49,712 nucleotides of DNA from Clostridiaceae bacterium (GTDB taxonomy: Bacteria > Bacillota > Clostridia > Oscillospirales > Acutalibacteraceae), in NCBI GenBank assembly GCA_016290665.1, contig JAEEUW010000003.1, positions 1 to 49,712 on the forward strand, in the 5' to 3' direction. The first letter of the stretch is position 1, and each line of letters begins with the position of its first letter. Shown here one piece after another: positions 41,741 through 49,712 of the stretch. Made by a program: the position numbers and the translations under genes. The notes under the pieces were generated by a model. It ran no database searches, was not told where the DNA came from, and saw only the letters and a program-made list of their open reading frames with translations.

Positions 41741-42364
41741 ATGCATATTCCGACCGCCGACAGTCTGACTGTCGCCATCGAGCCGTTTGAAGACGCGCTG
41801 CGCGCCGCGAAGCTCCAGTCCCACATCGCCTATGACGTGCGCGACTGGCTCTACGTGCCGAACCATTACGACGAATACCGGTACATCCTCGGTACCGTGG
41901 GCAGCCGTCCGCTGATCTGTATCGGCATCAATCCCTCCACCGCCGCGCCGAACGATCTGGACAACACGCTCAAATCCGTGGAGCGCATTGCGCACGCCAA
42001 CGGCTTCGACAGCTTCATCATGTTCAACGTCTATGCCCAGCGGGCGACCCGTCCGACCGACATGGACAAAACCTGCAACGAGCGACTGCACCGCGAAAAC
42101 ATGAAGGCGTTCGACTATGTTCTGTCGCTCTATGCGGGCGAGCATCCCGCCGTGTGGGCGGCGTGGGGCAACATCATCGAGCTGCGGCCCTATCTCAAGG
42201 ACTGTCTGCGCGACATGACACAGATCGGTCTTCGCCGCGGCGCGAGGTGGTACACCAGCGGCAGTATCAGCAAGAAGGGGCACCCGCACCATCCGCTGTA
42301 TCTCAGAAAAGACAGCCCGCTCGATCCGTTCGACGTGGCGGCCTACATCAACGACTGCCTGTAA
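41741..42364 (+). CDS. DUF1643 domain-containing protein
   Basis: 207 residues of DUF1643 (PF07799). Family stretches: YRYILGTVGSRPLICIGINPSTAAPNDLDNT, then GFDSFIMFNVYAQRAT, and VWAAWGNIIE. The Asn-Pro-Ser and Asp residues could be an active site but no reaction has been assigned that I know of; such genes often sit in mobile or nucleic-acid-modification settings. GAAGGGTAGGGG precedes the ATG. Cotranscribed with the MATE gene. Confidence 0.88.
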   Translation: MHIPTADSLTVAIEPFEDALRAAKLQSHIAYDVRDWLYVPNHYDEYRYILGTVGSRPLICIGINPSTAAPNDLDNTLKSVERIAHANGFDSFIMFNVYAQRATRPTDMDKTCNERLHRENMKAFDYVLSLYAGEHPAVWAAWGNIIELRPYLKDCLRDMTQIGLRRGARWYTSGSISKKGHPHHPLYLRKDSPLDPFDVAAYINDCL

Positions 42365-42415
42365 ACGGCATAACCCACCGCGATCTCTCATAGACTGCAA
42401 TGAGGAGAGATGGCG

Positions 42416-42694
42416 ATGGGTTTTTCAGTGCAGGAACGGGCAAAGCTGCTGGGCGGCTATATTGCGGAAACGGGGGCCACGGTGCGCCAAACGGCGCAGG
42501 TCTTTGCCGTGAGCAAATCCACCGTGCACGCCGACGTGACGCAGCGGCTGCGGCGCGCCGACCGCGACCTTTACGACCGGGTGCGCGCTGTGCTGGACGA
42601 GAACAAGCGCGAGCGCCACATCCGCGGCGGCAACGCGACCAAAGCCAAGTTTGCCCGCGCGCCGGACGCGCCCGACGATGGCGAAGAGCGATAA
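42416..42694 (+). CDS. spoIIID: Sporulation transcriptional regulator SpoIIID
   Basis: 92 residues. The helix-turn-helix ETGATVRQTAQVFAVSKSTVH followed by ADVTQRL, then VLDENKRERHIRGGNATKAKF, are the SpoIIID signature; the basic C-terminal helix contacts DNA. It controls mother-cell genes of sporulation under sigma-E. I start at 42416 rather than the ATG at 42410 because AGGAG is 8 bases from the former and only 2 from the latter. Together with sigG it shows a spore-forming lineage. Confidence 0.93.
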   Translation: MGFSVQERAKLLGGYIAETGATVRQTAQVFAVSKSTVHADVTQRLRRADRDLYDRVRAVLDENKRERHIRGGNATKAKFARAPDAPDDGEER

Positions 42695-42806
42695 CAATGG
42701 GGCGGTTACATTGAATAGCTCAAAAGAAGCACAAAGCAACAGGGTGATTCCCAAAGGAGCGCCCGGTTGTGAAAAAGGCCAGTAAAAACGGACAATAGAA
42801 ACAGAA

Positions 42807-42850
42807 GCCTCCTATGATACCTAAAGGAAAGCATCATAGGAGGCGTTTTT
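42807..42850 (+). terminator. Hairpin terminator downstream of spoIIID
   Basis: GCCTCCTATGAT/ATCATAGGAGGC (12 bp, perfect) with a 14-base loop, then GTTTTTG. It is 112 bases after the spoIIID stop, at the edge of the AT-rich island. Confidence 0.8.
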
Positions 42851-42899
42851 GTGGAAAAAAGCAATTGACTTTTCAGCAAACACGAAGAAGGGATAAACG

Positions 42900-43161
42900 T
42901 TGCGAGAAATATGGAAGATAGTCGGCTTCAGCTATGAACTAGTGCATAGCTTCATTTCAAGATACAACGAAAAAGAGAAAGACAGCAATTGACAATGGAA
43001 TGGAAGATGAGAGAATCTGCCCAAGGATTACCGAGTCGGCGAAAAAGAAAAGGTCGCACAGCCTCTGCACATTATTAACAAGAAAGACGCCAAGAGCAAA
43101 TCGCCGGAAATGGTAAATGGATTGATGCGGGTTCATCTTTGGTTTACAGAAAGAAAGTGAG
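42900..43161 (+). pseudogene. Decayed IS3-family transposase orfA remnant
   Basis: Fragments in different frames match IS3-family OrfA in order: LREIWKIVGFSYELVHSFIS with RYNEK (helix-turn-helix, 42900-42992), then LPSRRKRKGRT (the basic Gly/Arg linker), then EMVNGLMRVHLWFTERK ending at a stop (43158-43160), the counterpart of the usual MENELLRDFL...ER leucine-zipper end. Stops and frameshifts separate them. The orfB (DDE catalytic) part is absent. GAGGACAAGTG (43159-43169) has an inverted partner CACCTGTCCTC (43226-43236), a possible terminal-repeat relic. The rest of the gene-free stretch 42695-43254 holds only the hairpin at 42807-42850. Confidence 0.75.
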
Positions 43162-43254
43162 GACAAGTGTATAATACTTGGTATCGTTGGATTTTTGGAC
43201 CGCCTTCAAAGGATATGCTTTTGAGCACCTGTCCTCTATTATGCTGTCATGCGT

Positions 43255-44358
43255 TCATCGCATTTGATATCCATAGTGTTCGAAATAGAAACCGAGTCGC
43301 TCATTCACCTTTTGGATTAACTGTTCGGAATAATCAAACTCATTCTTTTGATAATCTATCCGATCATACCAGTATTTAGCGATTGCATCTCTGGCTTGAT
43401 CATACCCGCCAAGTTCAAGTGCTTGATACAGATCTTCCATAACTGGCAAAGGATTTTTTTCAAAGCTTTCAAAGCAGATTTCATAAAGGGTATCCGGCCC
43501 ACAGGTTTGCATCTCTTCAAAGTATGTCAGATACATATTGCGAAAAGTTTCAATCACCCAATCCTCCATGGTGTCACGTGAAGGAAGCGGTTCTAGCGTC
43601 CAGTTTGCCATAATCTTCTCATATAAGTGAATGGTTGACCGAACCACAGTGTAGGGGTTCCGATAGATGCTGACGAATCTTGCATCAGGATACATGCGCT
43701 TCAGCACAGCAAGGCGCGCCGTGTTATCTGGGCTTTTCAAAAGCAAAGGCTTGTTATCGTTAAGATACGTAATCTTTTTGAGCAATCGGTCATAGTTTTC
43801 GCACCACTTTTCTCTTTGACCGGCGGGCATCCGATCAACATAAGCATTTTCATTATATTTCAAAAAAGCTTGCGGAAAAAAGTTTAGCGGATAGACGCTG
43901 TTTGGTTCAATCGTGCTGAATACGATATACTCTTCCAGCGGAAGATTCATGGCATATTCCATATTGTCCATCGGGCGCCCGTCGACCAGATGGTCGGCAA
44001 TCACTTGTTCAAATGCCCAGCCAAGCAGGTGATAGAAATTCATTGTGAAGTTCATCAGCGGATTGATGAAACCGAACTGTGAATCCTGTGCCAACATCTG
44101 TTGCAGAAGAGTGGTTCCACTCCGCCAATGACCGAGGATAAACAGCGGTCGCTTGACTGAACAGCGGGCTTCTTTTTTTGAATAAAGTATTTTTTCCAAG
44201 ATTCGGAAAGGAGAAACGGCCAAAGAGACCGCTCCGGAAAGCATAATCTGCGGATAAAAGGCGGGGTCGATATCTGCGCGATTCTCTTTGATATATCGCG
44301 CAAGAACATGAAAATTGGTCACAGTAAGCGGGTGCGCAAAATTAACTTTCGTCTTCAT
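43255..44358 (-). CDS. PAPS-dependent sulfotransferase
   Basis: 367 residues, Sulfotransfer_3-like. The 5'-phosphosulfate loop is FILGHWRSGTTLLQQML (~72-88) and the 3'-phosphate site is RFVSIYRNPYTVVRST (~225-240), so PAPS binding is well supported. An acceptor-side helix with EEYIVFSTIEPNS and the C-terminal YEICFESFEKNPLPVMEDLY segment are typical. No cleavable signal is seen; hydrophobic stretches near 40-60 may associate with the membrane. The acceptor (glycan, lipid, sterol or other) is unknown. It is divergent from cysD-cysNC, which make PAPS, and more AT-rich than genes before 42.7 kb. AGGATGG precedes the ATG. Confidence 0.9.
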   Translation of the reverse strand: MKTKVNFAHPLTVTNFHVLARYIKENRADIDPAFYPQIMLSGAVSLAVSPFRILEKILYSKKEARCSVKRPLFILGHWRSGTTLLQQMLAQDSQFGFINPLMNFTMNFYHLLGWAFEQVIADHLVDGRPMDNMEYAMNLPLEEYIVFSTIEPNSVYPLNFFPQAFLKYNENAYVDRMPAGQREKWCENYDRLLKKITYLNDNKPLLLKSPDNTARLAVLKRMYPDARFVSIYRNPYTVVRSTIHLYEKIMANWTLEPLPSRDTMEDWVIETFRNMYLTYFEEMQTCGPDTLYEICFESFEKNPLPVMEDLYQALELGGYDQARDAIAKYWYDRIDYQKNEFDYSEQLIQKVNERLGFYFEHYGYQMR

Positions 44359-44381
44359 CGTATTCTACCATCCTAAACCTT

Positions 44382-44411
44382 ATTCTATATCTTGATATAT
44401 TATATTTTCAA
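44382..44411 (-). promoter_or_regulatory. Promoter of the sulfotransferase gene
   Basis: Minus strand: TTGAAA (44406-44411), an 18-bp spacer, TAGAAT (44382-44387). Confidence 0.55.
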
Positions 44412-44500
44412 AGTGTGATAAAAATGTGAAGAGACTGTAAGGACTTATTAAATGAAGCTATGAAAAGGAAATGCAATACAGCAATTTTAGATAAACCATA

Positions 44501-44529
44501 TTGACTTTGCCGACATGCTATGCTATCTT
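44501..44529 (+). promoter_or_regulatory. Promoter of the cysD-cysNC-TSUP operon
   Basis: TTGACT (44501-44506), a 17-bp spacer, TATCTT (44524-44529). It is divergent from the sulfotransferase promoter within a 211-bp gap. Confidence 0.7.
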
Positions 44530-44569
44530 TTTATGGAAAGAATCGCAGATGAGAAAAGAGGCTTAACAC

Positions 44570-45463
44570 ATGAACCATTTGGATAAGCTGGAAGCGGAAT
44601 CCATTTATATTTTTCGGGAAGTGGCGGCAGAGTGTGAAGCTCCTGTTATGCTATACTCGATCGGCAAGGATTCCTCTGTCATGCTGCATCTTGCCTTAAA
44701 AGCCTTTTACCCGGAAAAGCCGCCGTTTCCTCTTTTACATATCAATACTACTTGGAAATTTAAAGAAATGATCTCTTTCCGTGATCGACGTGCAAAAGAG
44801 TTGGGAATAAAAGTAATCGAGTATATCAACGAAGATGGCCTGCGGCAGGGCATCAATCCGTTTGATCATGGTGCTGCTTACACCGATATCATGAAAACGC
44901 AGGCACTCAAGCAGGCAATTGAGAAATACGGTTTTACCGCTGCTTTCGGAGGTGCACGCCGAGACGAAGAAAAGAGCCGGGCGAAAGAACGCATTTTCTC
45001 TTTTCGAAACGCTGCTCAGGCATGGGATCCCAAACATCAGCGGCCGGAGTTTTGGAAATTATATAATACCGAGATCTATAAAGGTGAAAGCATCCGTGTA
45101 TTCCCTCTTTCAAACTGGACAGAGTTGGATATCTGGCAATACATCAAAAGGGAAAACATCCCGGTCGTGCCGCTATATTTTGCCAAGCCGCGGCCGGTTG
45201 TAGAACGTGACGGCCATCTGATACTGGTAGATGATGACAGGCTGCCGCTGCGTCCGGGGGAAACGCCGACGATCAAGAACGTTCGCTTTCGTACGCTTGG
45301 TTGTTATCCGTTGACCGGCGGAGAAGAATCAACCGCCGATACCGTAGATGCCATTATTGCCGAAACGGCATCTGCAGCAAACAGCGAAAGGACCAGCCGC
45401 GTGATTGATAAGGACGGTGGTTCCGCAAGCATGGAAAAGCGCAAACGGGAAGGTTATTTTTAA
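44570..45463 (+). CDS. cysD: Sulfate adenylyltransferase subunit 2
   Basis: 297 residues, the standard CysD length. PP-loop [19 protein letters not shown] (~33-52), [37 protein letters not shown] and the C-terminal RKREGYF end are all CysD hallmarks. With CysN it makes adenosine-5'-phosphosulfate from sulfate and ATP. AAGAGG lies upstream. The stop overlaps the cysNC start (TAATG), so translation is coupled. Confidence 0.95.
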
Positions 45464-47301
45464 TGAAAGAATTACTCAAATTCCTGACCTGCGGCAGTGT
45501 GGATGATGGAAAATCCACCCTTATCGGCCGCATACTATATGATGCCAAACTGATCTTTGCCGATCAAGAGAATGCGTTGATTATGGACTCCAGAGTGAGA
45601 ACCCAAACCGGCGAGCTCGACTATTCCCTTCTGCTTGACGGCCTGATGGCCGAGCGGGAGCAGGGCATTACTATCGATATTGCCTATCGTTTCTTTTCAA
45701 CTGAAAAAAGATCCTTTATTGTTGCGGATGCGCCGGGACATGAAGAATACACACGGAACATGGCGGTCGGCGCCTCTTTCGCGGACCTTGCCGTGATCCT
45801 GCTGGACGCTGCACATGGAATCATGCCGCAAACCAGACGCCACTTTCACATCTGTGCCATGATGGGAATCCGGCACTTTGTGTTCGCAGTCAACAAAATG
45901 GATCTGGTAGACTATGACGCCGATATTTTCAATGAGCTGTCATCCGAGATCCGGGAACTGACCAGGGACTATCCCTCAGAGGCAGTCATTATTCCGACCA
46001 GTGCAAAAAAAGGCGACAATGTCACTGTCCCTTCCGCCAGCATGCCCTGGTATCATGGCCCTGCATTGCTGCAGTATCTGGAAACTGTTCCGACTATACA
46101 GCAACCGAAAGCCGAGTCCTTTACCATGCCGGTGCAGCGCGTCTGCCGTTCAGACGGCACGTTCCGCGGATTTCAGGGTGAGGTCTTTGCCGGAAGTATT
46201 TGTGTAGGCGAACGAATCCGGGTTCTTCCCAGCAAGGAGGAGGCAACTGTTACGCGCATTCTCTGCGGTGCTGCTGACATGCAGACGGCGGAGCGGGGGA
46301 GTCCCGTCACGATTTTTCTGGACCGGGAGATCGATATTTCAAGAGGCTGCGTACTGACGCAGAACGACCGGCTGATCTGCAGTGCGGTGCTGCAGGCAGA
46401 ACTGCTCTGGTTGGATGATGAGCCGTTGGAGATCGGCAGAAGCTATTTGCTGAAAGCGGCAGCGCAAAAGATTCCTGCCGTGATCACAAAGATCAAATAT
46501 AAACTTGACATTGAATCCAACACAAAAACAAGCGGTGACAGCGTTCATAAAAACGAAATCGCCTGCTGCGAAATCTATACCGACACAGCGCTTGTGTTTG
46601 ATCTGTTTCAGAACAACCGCAATCTGGGCGGTTTGATCCTGATAGACCGGGTGCGTCATACGACATGCGCATGCGGTATGATCCGCAGCCATACAAGCGT
46701 CAGCCAAAACCTTTCCTTCCATAAAACTGATTTGAACCGCTCTTTCCGGGAACAGAACCTTTCACAGAAAGCGCAGACGATCTGGTTTACCGGGCTTTCC
46801 GGTTCCGGTAAATCCACGCTTGCTAACGCTTTGGAAAAGCGACTGTTTCTAAGCGGAAAGGCAACCATGCTTCTGGATGCCGACAATGTGCGCATGGGAC
46901 TGAACCGCGATCTCGGCTTTACAAAGGAAGACCGCAGCGAAAATATCCGACGTTTGGCCGAAACCGCCAAACTGATGAATGACGCCGGTTTGATTGTGTT
47001 GGTTTCCGCCATTTCTCCGCGCCGCGTTGATCGCAGAATGGCGCGCAGTATCATCGGAAGTGCTTTTCACGAGGTCTATATAAATACGCCGCTGGAAACC
47101 TGTATCAGCCGCGACGTCAAGGGACTTTATCAAAAAGCGCTGCGTGGTGAGATCCGGCAGTTTTCCGGCATCGACATGGCCTATGAGCCGCCGGAGCATC
47201 CGGACCTTATCATCGACACAACAGAAGTTGATGTCGATAAGTGCGTGCAGCAACTCCTGCGGGCGTTCTTTGACGATGATGCAAAAACAGTCAGGACTTA
47301 A
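45463..47301 (+). CDS. cysNC: Fused sulfate adenylyltransferase subunit 1 / APS kinase
   Basis: 612 residues. CysN GTPase part: G1 GSVDDGKST (~11-19), DAPGHEEYTRNM (G3, ~86-97), NKMD (G4), then EF-Tu-like beta-barrels (~230-425). The APS kinase part (~435-612) has Walker A TGLSGSGKSTLA and VSAISPRR with the conserved Ser. The fusion delivers APS straight to PAPS, the sulfo donor. No sulfite-forming reductase (CysH/aprAB) gene is nearby, which points to sulfation rather than cysteine synthesis or sulfate respiration. Confidence 0.95.
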   Translation: MKELLKFLTCGSVDDGKSTLIGRILYDAKLIFADQENALIMDSRVRTQTGELDYSLLLDGLMAEREQGITIDIAYRFFSTEKRSFIVADAPGHEEYTRNMAVGASFADLAVILLDAAHGIMPQTRRHFHICAMMGIRHFVFAVNKMDLVDYDADIFNELSSEIRELTRDYPSEAVIIPTSAKKGDNVTVPSASMPWYHGPALLQYLETVPTIQQPKAESFTMPVQRVCRSDGTFRGFQGEVFAGSICVGERIRVLPSKEEATVTRILCGAADMQTAERGSPVTIFLDREIDISRGCVLTQNDRLICSAVLQAELLWLDDEPLEIGRSYLLKAAAQKIPAVITKIKYKLDIESNTKTSGDSVHKNEIACCEIYTDTALVFDLFQNNRNLGGLILIDRVRHTTCACGMIRSHTSVSQNLSFHKTDLNRSFREQNLSQKAQTIWFTGLSGSGKSTLANALEKRLFLSGKATMLLDADNVRMGLNRDLGFTKEDRSENIRRLAETAKLMNDAGLIVLVSAISPRRVDRRMARSIIGSAFHEVYINTPLETCISRDVKGLYQKALRGEIRQFSGIDMAYEPPEHPDLIIDTTEVDVDKCVQQLLRAFFDDDAKTVRT

Positions 47302-47321
47302 CGAAGAAGAGGAAAGATATT

Positions 47322-48083
47322 ATGATTGTACTGTGTTTCCTGATCGGATTTGTTGCCCAGATTATTGACGGAACACTCGGAATGGCTTATGGTGTGAGCT
47401 GTAACACTTTTTTACAGTTGTTCTTCCACATGACTCCACTCATGTCATCTTCTCTGGTGCATTTTTCCGAGATTCTGACATCCGGTGTGTCAGCCCTTTC
47501 CTATTACAAGATGAAGAATATTGACAAACAATTGTTTGTCAGATTGCTTTTGCCTGGCATTGCAGGTGGTGTGATCGGCGCGTTGCTGCTTTCAGACCTA
47601 GGATCCTACATGGAGATCCCTGTGGCGGTATATCTGGTGATCATGGGCCTTGTCCTGGTTGTCAAGGCAATCCGGAACAGACCGGCAAAACCCAGAAAAA
47701 TGATTGGGGGTTTTATCTATCCTGTCGCTGCACTAGGCGGTTTGCTTGATGCTGCCGGTGGGGGTGGCTGGGGCCCAGTTGTCAACACGACCATGCTGAG
47801 CAGAAGCGAGAACGTTTCTCAAACGATCGGTTCGGTCAATACCGCGGAGTTTTTTGTAACACTCGCGGAATCCATTGTGTTTTCTTTGACGATTTCTTCT
47901 GTTACGGATCATCTCGTCGAACTCGTGTTTTTAATTCTGGGCGGAGTCTGTGCAGCACCGATTGCAGCCTGGCTGTGCAAAAAAGCAAATAAGCGGTTGC
48001 TGTTGCTTTTGGTTGGAATACTGGTTACAGGACTGAACTTGTTCAAGTTGTACAGCAAAATAGCACCATTGTTTTCACGGTGA
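47322..48083 (+). CDS. TSUP (TauE/SafE) family transporter
   Basis: 253 residues, about seven to eight membrane helices. IGFVAQIIDGTLGMAYGVSCNTFL and the second-half LLDAAGGGGWGPVVNTTML are the paired TSUP motifs. Family members move sulfite, sulfate, sulfonates or organic anions. It starts 20 bases after cysNC with AGAGGAAAG upstream, so supplying sulfate to the PAPS pathway is the simplest role; exporting a sulfur compound is the alternative. Confidence 0.9.
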   Translation: MIVLCFLIGFVAQIIDGTLGMAYGVSCNTFLQLFFHMTPLMSSSLVHFSEILTSGVSALSYYKMKNIDKQLFVRLLLPGIAGGVIGALLLSDLGSYMEIPVAVYLVIMGLVLVVKAIRNRPAKPRKMIGGFIYPVAALGGLLDAAGGGGWGPVVNTTMLSRSENVSQTIGSVNTAEFFVTLAESIVFSLTISSVTDHLVELVFLILGGVCAAPIAAWLCKKANKRLLLLLVGILVTGLNLFKLYSKIAPLFSR

Positions 48084-48153
48084 GCTGCAACGGCCTGCTT
48101 TAAACCCAGCCATTCAATGAATCAAAATACCAAGATTAGCTTTTAATAACAGA

Positions 48154-48205
48154 ACAACGTCTGGAACCCTGGTGATATACCTGTGTTCCGGGCGTTGTAG
48201 TTTTT
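48154..48205 (+). terminator. Terminator of the cysD-cysNC-TSUP operon
   Basis: ACAACGTCTGGAAC/GTTCCGGGCGTTGT (14 bp with two G-U pairs and one mismatch), then AGTTTTT. In the rest of the gene-free stretch 48084-48477 I see a second inverted pair GTCAAGTA/TACTTGAC (about 48246-48276) and the minus-strand terminator below, but no gene. Confidence 0.75.
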
Positions 48206-48309
48206 ACTGTCGGATTCACTGGAGTTTCCAAAAGCAACAATCTGGTCAAGTACGATTGGCACAGTCATACTTGACTGCTTGAAACGCCAATGGATATGAA
48301 TGGCTATGC

Positions 48310-48349
48310 ATGAAAAAACAAAGGATCGACCCGGCTGGATCGACCCTTT
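48310..48349 (-). terminator. Terminator of the Lgt-like operon
   Basis: Read on the minus strand: AAAGGGTCGATCC-AGCC-GGGTCGATCCTTT (13 bp, two G-U pairs) followed by TGTTTTTT. Confidence 0.8.
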
Positions 48350-48477
48350 AGCTAGTTACCTGAACTAAAACATAAAACTATGAAGCACTGCATACAAGAA
48401 CCAAAAGTGCAGTGCAATGGAAGCTTCTGAAGCGTTTGTCCTCCATCTGCTATGTTCCCTTCAAAACGGAGTAAGTA

Positions 48478-49263
48478 TTATTTCTCAGCAGACTTTTTGC
48501 CGAACAGAAGCTTCAGACGCGTGACCTCGTCGATATCCTCCCGGAACAACAGCGGGTGCTTTTCTGTCAGTGCCTTGTTCTTCAGCGTGAAATGGATCAC
48601 GAGGAGAACGATCAAACCAAGCGCGAATTCCGCTATACAATAGTATTGGAACTGGGAAAGCTGCCAGCGAACCGGTGTATCATCACGGAAGAACTCATAA
48701 ATAAACCGTGTTGCGCCGAACAAGAGGAGATGCTGGGCATAGGCCATGCCGTGGGTGTTGTAGTTGTGCTTTTTGGCATACAGCACAATAAACGCACAGA
48801 TCAGCAAAATCGAAGCGGCTTCTACCAGTTGGATCGGAAACAGCATGGCTTGTTGCTCCTGATTCCAAATGGCAATCTTGCCTGCATAGGGATAGCCGTA
48901 GCAGCAGCCCTGGAAAATGCAGAAAATATGTGAAACGCCGTGGTTGATGCAGGCGGTGGGGGTCAGAAAGTCAAACGTCTTTGCGTAGTTGGTCCGCAGC
49001 AGCAGGCAGATCAGATAGACGGCGGCGGGAATAAACAGAACCGCACGCACCCAGTTGATGCCGCCCTTGTGTACCAACGACAGCAAAATGATCAGCCCGT
49101 AGCCGAACGGGATCACCAGCGTGGTTGCAAGGAACGCCTTGAGCATTTTGAAGCCGAACTTTTTGCGGTACCAGAGAAGATTGAACAAAAAGTCAGCGGC
49201 AAACGCAAGAATGTAGCCCCAATAGTAGAGCGTGATGCCTAAAATCTTATAATCTGGTAACAT
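48478..49263 (-). CDS. Lgt-like membrane protein (divergent prolipoprotein diacylglyceryl transferase family)
   Basis: 261 residues, about seven membrane helices. Lgt-like parts are HIFCIFQGCCYGYP, FPIQLVEAAS and FGATRFIYEFFRDDTP in the C-terminal half. True Lgt has GRIGNF where this protein has SHIFCIF, so the essential Arg and the Asn of that motif are replaced; HGGL is also not evident. It belongs to the GCCYG-containing paralogs. Lgt moves diacylglycerol to lipoprotein Cys; this one may modify another substrate. AGGAG precedes the ATG, and a small membrane-protein gene ends 6 bases upstream. Confidence 0.75.
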   Translation of the reverse strand: MLPDYKILGITLYYWGYILAFAADFLFNLLWYRKKFGFKMLKAFLATTLVIPFGYGLIILLSLVHKGGINWVRAVLFIPAAVYLICLLLRTNYAKTFDFLTPTACINHGVSHIFCIFQGCCYGYPYAGKIAIWNQEQQAMLFPIQLVEAASILLICAFIVLYAKKHNYNTHGMAYAQHLLLFGATRFIYEFFRDDTPVRWQLSQFQYYCIAEFALGLIVLLVIHFTLKNKALTEKHPLLFREDIDEVTRLKLLFGKKSAEK

Positions 49264-49269
49264 GATTTT

Positions 49270-49659
49270 TCATCTCCTGTTCAGTTTACTACCTTCTTTA
49301 TAGATGGCTTTATAATGACTCAGCGGGTGCAGCTCCTTGCGAAGCGGAACATCGCTGATAACATCCCTGTAAATGCTTGCATACTGCTCTTCCTTGGAAG
49401 AATCAAAGCTGGAAGGTGACACTTCTTTACATCTTAAAAAAAACGAAATCGCCTGTTTTTTTGTAAAGTATCCGTTCCGGTAAAACCATTCATAGCCGAA
49501 ACGGAGCAGGAAAACTGCCACAGCCAGCATTACAGTAGCAATAAGAGTAGCAGGAATGCCGCGCGAAATCAAATTGTAGATCCAGTTGAAAACGGTGGCA
49601 ACCAAAAAGCATAAAGAAGCGACTAGAAATATTGAAAAATGAAGTCGACGATCTTTCAT
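49270..49659 (-). CDS. Hypothetical membrane protein with two helices
   Basis: 129 residues, family not recognised. Two hydrophobic helices (~8-28 and ~35-55) near the N-terminus are followed by a soluble charged tail with FYRNGYFTKKQAISFFLRCKE and a Ser/Glu-rich segment. I start at the ATG at 49659, 9 bases after GGAG; a TTG further up is possible. It ends 6 bases before the Lgt-like gene in the same direction, so the two are probably one operon, possibly with more genes beyond the window. Confidence 0.6.
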   Translation of the reverse strand: MKDRRLHFSIFLVASLCFLVATVFNWIYNLISRGIPATLIATVMLAVAVFLLRFGYEWFYRNGYFTKKQAISFFLRCKEVSPSSFDSSKEEQYASIYRDVISDVPLRKELHPLSHYKAIYKEGSKLNRR

Positions 49660-49712
49660 CAAAACCACTCCAAGTGTCAAATTTGTACCGTACGCATCAG
49701 ATGCGGCGGCTG

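Follow-up and report, generated by a model that had tools for sequence, protein, structure and literature searches.

A Clostridial Sulfotransferase Cassette Predicted to Be a Counterpart of the Bacteroides Cholesterol/Steroid Cluster

We analyzed the 49,712-nucleotide contig JAEEUW010000003.1 (assembly GCA_016290665.1, a Clostridiaceae bacterium), hereafter the window, which is one entire contig (C49) of a 2.34-Mb metagenome-assembled genome (MAG) that is 85% complete and 4% contaminated. The window carries a probable sulfation cassette of four intact genes: a sulfotransferase (SULT) dependent on 3′-phosphoadenosine 5′-phosphosulfate (PAPS) adjoins all the genes needed for PAPS synthesis as well as a transporter that probably imports sulfate. 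Judged by sequence, this unit appears to be what corresponds in Clostridia to the cholesterol/steroid cluster of Bacteroides, drawn from a separate SULT lineage. Its overall plan is known from Bacteroides; the SULT clade, the transporter, the fused CysNC, and an Lgt-like neighbor set it apart. The cassette probably serves PAPS-fed sulfation, while a lipid-type acceptor is a tentative assignment.

Gene content and organization of the cassette

The SULT gene (positions 43255–44358, minus strand; 367 amino acids) was assigned to the Sulfotransfer_3 family by profile, structure model, and alignment, with a Pfam score of 109.5 bits (E 3.7e-31) against a curated cut-off of 27. Pointing away from it across a 211-base divergent intergenic region (44359–44569) is cysD (44570–45463, plus strand; 297 amino acids), encoding the small subunit of ATP sulfurylase, which scores 513 bits against an NCBIfam equivalog cut-off of 413 and contains the SIGKDS loop. 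The next gene, cysNC (45463–47301, plus strand; 612 amino acids), overlaps cysD by one base (TAATG) and encodes the GTPase subunit of ATP sulfurylase fused to adenosine 5′-phosphosulfate (APS) kinase; the assignment comes from NCBIfam (777 bits versus a cut-off of 715 for bifunctional CysN/CysC), Pfam, and motifs, with both P-loops and the GTPase motifs present. The fourth gene (47322–48083, plus strand; 253 amino acids; 105 bits to PF01925) encodes a TSUP (TauE/SafE) transporter, a probable sulfate importer. An initial annotation of this DNA, made from the letters alone, had already placed these four genes, with a divergent SULT, an overlapping cysD-cysNC pair, and a TSUP transporter, and our gene calls and family scores bear it out. 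Its bounds of 43255–48083 proved too narrow: the unit probably continues past 48083, because genes for an Lgt-like protein, the most unusual part of the locus, and a small membrane protein come next and had been missed. Sequence beyond the window edge is unreadable because the window is the whole contig.

Both PAPS motifs recognized in that annotation are present in SULT, the 5′-phosphosulfate-binding motif being GHWRSGTT (residues 76–83) and the 3′ site R233...S241. Residues R79, T82, T83, K208, R233, and S241 are invariant in all 87 aligned SULT rows, as are R128, D131, and E142, the last of which is our guess for the catalytic base; with the PAPS residues kept in every row, the window protein does not fall among non-catalytic homologs. 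Its AlphaFold2 model is confident (predicted local distance difference test score, pLDDT, 93.9), and the best solved fold matches are sulfotransferases, namely mycobacterial Stf1 and Stf9 (2zq5, 2z6v; template modeling (TM) scores to the query 0.68 and 0.70), although identity to these is only 14–18%.

Relationship to the Bacteroides cluster and to other clostridial loci

According to PMC9417993, BT_0416 produces cholesterol sulfate and has putative PAPS genes and a carrier as neighbors, and sulfation with self-made PAPS by gut Bacteroides alters host cholesterol sulfate. The BT_0411–BT_0416 cluster described there places sulfate carrier, PAPS genes, and sulfotransferase side by side, as does the window, and the initial description of the latter as an undescribed system was therefore too strong. 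BT_0416-like enzymes were reported across gut genera in a 2024 paper (PMC10932419), whose main text does not contain “Firmicutes” and has “clostridi” in one reference title only. Among the literature titles and abstract openings listed, a coverage that leaves out most subscription papers, we found no description of a clostridial PAPS-SULT cassette.

BT_0416 itself is absent from our 87-row SULT tree, in which a Parabacteroides locus stands in for it by gene order; the SULT of that locus, like that of the window, has 367 amino acids. The 20 named Bacillota rows group together (1 change, support 100/98). Separate from them are the Bacteroidales rows, the majority with a BT_0411–BT_0416-like arrangement, and the window SULT lies outside the Bacteroidales clade with this arrangement (separate starred clades). 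It is 28–31% identical to the Parabacteroides SULT. Further differences from the Bacteroides plan are the fusion of CysN and CysC, a TSUP transporter in place of SLC13, the divergent orientation of SULT relative to the PAPS genes, the Lgt-like neighbor, and the lack of cysQ among the window genes annotated (the genome was not searched for CysQ). Elsewhere in the tree, SULT relatives occur in MAGs of Thermoplasmatota and Lokiarchaeota (L077, L079, L083, L086, L089); a single row from a planctomycete falls inside the Thermoplasmatota group.

An alignment-based scan of named genomes yielded 568 confirmed SULT stretches, of which the best 80 comprise 22 clostridial and 58 other loci; an earlier scan of named genomes with a single SULT as query had confirmed no relative. 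CysD and CysNC were found on the DNA fetched for at least 7 of the 22 clostridial loci (L058, L060, L061, L069, L073, L075, L131) and for at least 5 of the 58 others, all Bacteroidales, these counts being lower bounds with many contigs ending early. The arrangement noted in the window thus recurs in other Clostridia. SULT, cysD, and cysNC run in series and in the same direction in L058, L060, L061, L073, and L075, and in L060 they are followed by a TSUP gene 46% identical to that of the window. The transporter family beside the PAPS genes varies: TSUP in the window and L060, the PF02417 family in L069 (a chromate-type transporter after cysNC) and L131 (between cysNC and SULT), and an SLC13 permease, accompanied by cysQ, in Parabacteroides. 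Two gene families lie upstream of SULT in L058, L060, L061, and L069, represented in L060 by a response regulator and a histidine kinase. One member of the clostridial SULT clade is a named strain open to direct test, Eubacterium oxidoreducens DSM 3217 (L059), with no PAPS genes seen within 10 kb on either side of its SULT. If Clostridia have a distinct lineage that supplies its own PAPS and has a membrane protein as neighbor, this would widen the range of makers of sulfated metabolites in the gut and would point to a sulfated lipid as a product open to test.

Association of SULT with APS kinase

In a class sample of 391 genomes, SULT occurs in 12 (the window’s own genome, with one SULT by a PF13469 search, included) and APS kinase at E ≤ 1e-30 in 29, counted from 9 first-look candidates scored per genome. 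The kinase is present in 11 of the 12 SULT-bearing genomes versus 18 of the 379 without SULT (Fisher 6e-13, a value overstated in that the compared genomes are relatives). That overstatement is one of several points that weigh against a PAPS-fed sulfation unit. Of the 12 SULT genomes, 4 show a CysNC-type kinase (G000, G102, G046, and partially G008). Among the 11 genomes with both genes, 3 belong to family f43, where in the one annotated genome the kinase adjoins sugar-nucleotide genes, namely GHMP kinase, nucleotidyltransferase, and phosphomutase genes, and 4 belong to f11, where the kinase occurs without CysD/CysN in the stretches fetched (L020, L021, L022, and L024, none of which gave a CysD or CysNC match). 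The PAPS genes are also uneven within the clostridial set: the window CysD is 78% identical to those of L069 and L131 and 64–66% to Bacteroidales CysD, but only 37–39% to those of L058, L060, L061, L073, and L075, a split that points to two sorts of PAPS genes having come together with this lineage of SULT.

The Lgt-like neighbor and the acceptor

Downstream of the transporter gene, on the minus strand, lies a gene for an Lgt-like integral membrane protein (48478–49263; 261 amino acids) that scores 59.9 bits to PF01790, over the cut-off, and 60 bits to NCBIfam lgt, far under its cut-off of 334. A true lgt is located elsewhere in the same genome, and compared with it the Lgt-like protein has a histidine (H112) in place of the first active-site arginine (which we take to be the position of R143 in Escherichia coli) and a GCCYG stretch for GNFANQE, so that the lgt signature is lacking. 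The second arginine motif (R186) is retained, and E. coli Lgt (5azb) is the first-ranked fold match (probability 1.00, TM 0.56), but with E 6.4e-3; no match fell under E 0.001 in this search, which used a model of pLDDT 74.8 built from four sequences. Next to it, an open reading frame at about 49270–49659 (minus strand) would encode a small membrane protein of ~129 amino acids with two hydrophobic stretches followed by a polar tail; the frame is open to the contig end, and the true start may be further upstream.

An Lgt-like gene lies on the DNA near SULT in the window, where the PAPS genes sit between the two, and in L056, L057, and L066, whose SULTs are 58%, 41%, and 38% identical to that of the window and form one clade with it in the 87-row tree (support 100/98). 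No Lgt-like gene was detected by blastp with two Lgt-like queries at the 58 non-clostridial SULT loci. The small protein is present too in L056 and L057 (25% and 20% identical to that of the window); an open reading frame of L066 (100–543) considered for the same role showed no resemblance. This four-member clade hints at a lipid-linked acceptor.

Taken from family functions, the proposed pathway would begin with sulfate import by TSUP. CysD and the CysN half of CysNC would use ATP to convert the sulfate into APS, which the fused CysC kinase would phosphorylate to PAPS. SULT, given its family and conserved site, would then transfer the sulfuryl group from PAPS to an acceptor. Our preferred candidate for this acceptor is a membrane-located alcohol of hydrophobic character, perhaps a lipid that the Lgt-like protein and its small partner make or present. 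We favor such an alcohol because cholesterol is what the gut enzyme studied from this family acts on and because the recurrent neighbor of the clade is an Lgt-like membrane protein. The 3′-phosphoadenosine 5′-phosphate left over would be removed by an enzyme presumably encoded elsewhere in the genome, for which NrnA is a candidate. A more specific clostridial sulfolipid pathway is unlikely. In it, the Lgt-like enzyme would take diacylglyceryl (or a similar group) from phosphatidylglycerol and transfer it to something other than the cysteine of a lipoprotein, or else would present a lipid, and SULT would sulfate the product; if true, it would mean an undescribed sulfated membrane lipid in gut and rumen Clostridia.

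Several further results tell against a lipid-type acceptor tied to the Lgt-like gene. Of the 398 genomes in the family sample, 97 carry Lgt-like genes (E ≤ 1e-8) versus 2 that carry SULT (own genome included). Two genomes, G448 and G558, carry an Lgt-like gene 82% identical to that of the window and a similar small gene without SULT, and the histidine-type gene is found in these and in G702 and G679, where SULT was not found either. The Lgt-like/small-protein pair, given its presence in genomes lacking SULT, is thus an independent module that accompanies this branch of SULTs; the histidine type is present in both SULT-bearing family genomes versus at least 4 of the other 396 (Fisher 2e-4, a rough value for which only the best-scoring Lgt-like loci were read). 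The N-terminal helix of the window SULT, at a hydrophobicity of 1.22, is the lowest among 26 clostridial rows. Those rows have a median of 1.88, compared with 0.54 for BtSULT-like proteins (7 rows) and 1.38 for others (40 rows), the motif pattern having left out 14 of the 87 rows. Support for a lipid-anchor helix is accordingly weak: the clostridial rows are more hydrophobic, but the window’s own is the least so among them.

Two other acceptors were weighed against the lipid type. The sharing of overall plan and protein family with BT_0416 would fit a unit that sulfates steroids or cholesterol, the substrate of BT_0416; the low identity to the Parabacteroides SULT and the separate clades, the more hydrophobic clostridial helix (with the window’s own value as an exception), and the absence of detected Lgt-like genes beside the 58 non-clostridial SULTs make this improbable. 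Substrate specificity is not readable from these comparisons of identity, clade, helix, and neighbor. PAPS sulfotransferases can also use sugars as acceptors, an activity that would suit sulfation of a surface glycan or exopolysaccharide. We consider this doubtful, with no glycosyltransferase among the five nearest annotated genes to the left (DUF3737, MATE, DUF1643, and spoIIID-like genes), which is a weak argument.

Base composition and acquisition

Near 42.7 kb the guanine-plus-cytosine (GC) fraction falls from ~0.6 to 0.43. Third-position GC is 0.77–0.85 in eight genes checked ahead of this point and 0.48–0.59 in SULT, cysD, cysNC, and TSUP; the Lgt-like gene has a value of 0.68 and the small gene one of 0.43. 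A search of the genus’s 33 other genomes gave no SULT, and in two congeners the spoIIID-like gene is followed instead by two radical-SAM genes, identified by size and order as hydE and hydG, with hydF as the third gene, and then by small-protein and Lgt-like genes. Low GC, absence from the 33 congeners, and the presence of other genes behind spoIIID in two of them make the cassette look acquired.

The same GC drop, absence from the genus, and different gene content in the two congeners, together with the 4% contamination of the MAG, could also arise from an assembly chimera in which the contig’s terminal 7 kb of low GC comes from another organism. This is unlikely: the Lgt-like gene at the far end is 82% identical to genes of two other family members (GC 0.56–0.58), and a small-protein/Lgt-like pair, though only ~30% identical, lies a few kb past spoIIID in two congeners, so both ends are in keeping with this family, and an acquired island would account for the GC dip.

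Ahead of the cassette, positions 42700–43254 form a low-GC stretch of ~550 bases with no gene of at least 100 amino acids between the end of the spoIIID-like gene and SULT, possibly a remnant of the insertion. The gap (42700–43260) matched no plasmid record, and the phage records searched gave no match.

Sulfation versus assimilatory reduction

CysDNC and TSUP serve assimilation too in other bacteria, and the genome is incomplete, but a role for CysDNC in feeding APS/PAPS to sulfide formation, with SULT as a chance neighbor, is very improbable, in view of the recurrence of CysD and CysNC at 7 of the 22 clostridial SULT loci and of the lack, in a MAG that is 85% complete, of CysH and of any sulfite/nitrite reductase match (PF01077, 0 matches). 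The PF01507 matches are CysD and, over the cut-off only with its neighbors, a second protein that is the tRNA enzyme TilS rather than CysH. These absences are soft given a completeness of 85% and a contamination of 4%, which counts on the other side. The initial interpretation of the cassette therefore stands in its choice of sulfation over assimilation, a choice to which the co-occurrence of SULT and APS kinase in the class sample also contributes, and goes too far in its claim of novelty.

Signals and neighboring genes

Upstream of cysD we noted a promoter-like TTGACT-17-TATCTT (44501–44529); promoter-like matches in 42600–49712 were not clearly over chance (14 found versus 9.4 expected, standard deviation 3.6), and no Rfam family reached its cut-off in 42000–49712. 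Terminator-like stems occur on the minus strand between the spoIIID-like gene and the cassette (16 pairs, 42807–42844) and behind the Lgt-like gene (14 pairs, 48319–48350).

Among Lgt-like loci elsewhere, the two congeners carry, behind their two radical-SAM genes and hydF, a small membrane protein and two Lgt-like genes, the second of them convergent (L150:8182–10293, L151:11301–13411). In G558, the 82% identical Lgt-like gene adjoins a gene for a 2546-amino-acid protein that by eye is secreted and repetitive (L186:1266–8906). An APS-kinase homolog at L049:8423–14538 lies beside a GHMP kinase, a nucleotidyltransferase, and a phosphomutase, and may belong to a pathway other than PAPS synthesis. 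As a hint, a PF00198-family gene, called an acyltransferase (with Pfam run on the L060 copy only), adjoins SULT or cysD in L058, L060, and L069.

SULT is followed in genomes of family f13 (L018:2427–4416, L074:7196–9191, L017:13092–14607) by two paralogous proteins of 234–269 amino acids, none of the scanned ones reaching a Pfam cut-off, and in L018 and L074 a protein of 158–162 amino acids is also found behind SULT. Small proteins beside SULT in f13 (L018, L019) were compared with the small protein of the window and set aside at 12–14% identity. At all four f11 loci (L020, L021, L022, L024), SULT adjoins holA; genes for a SpoU-type methylase, GAPDH, and PGK/TIM follow in L020. The SULT of these genomes is perhaps a stable core gene.

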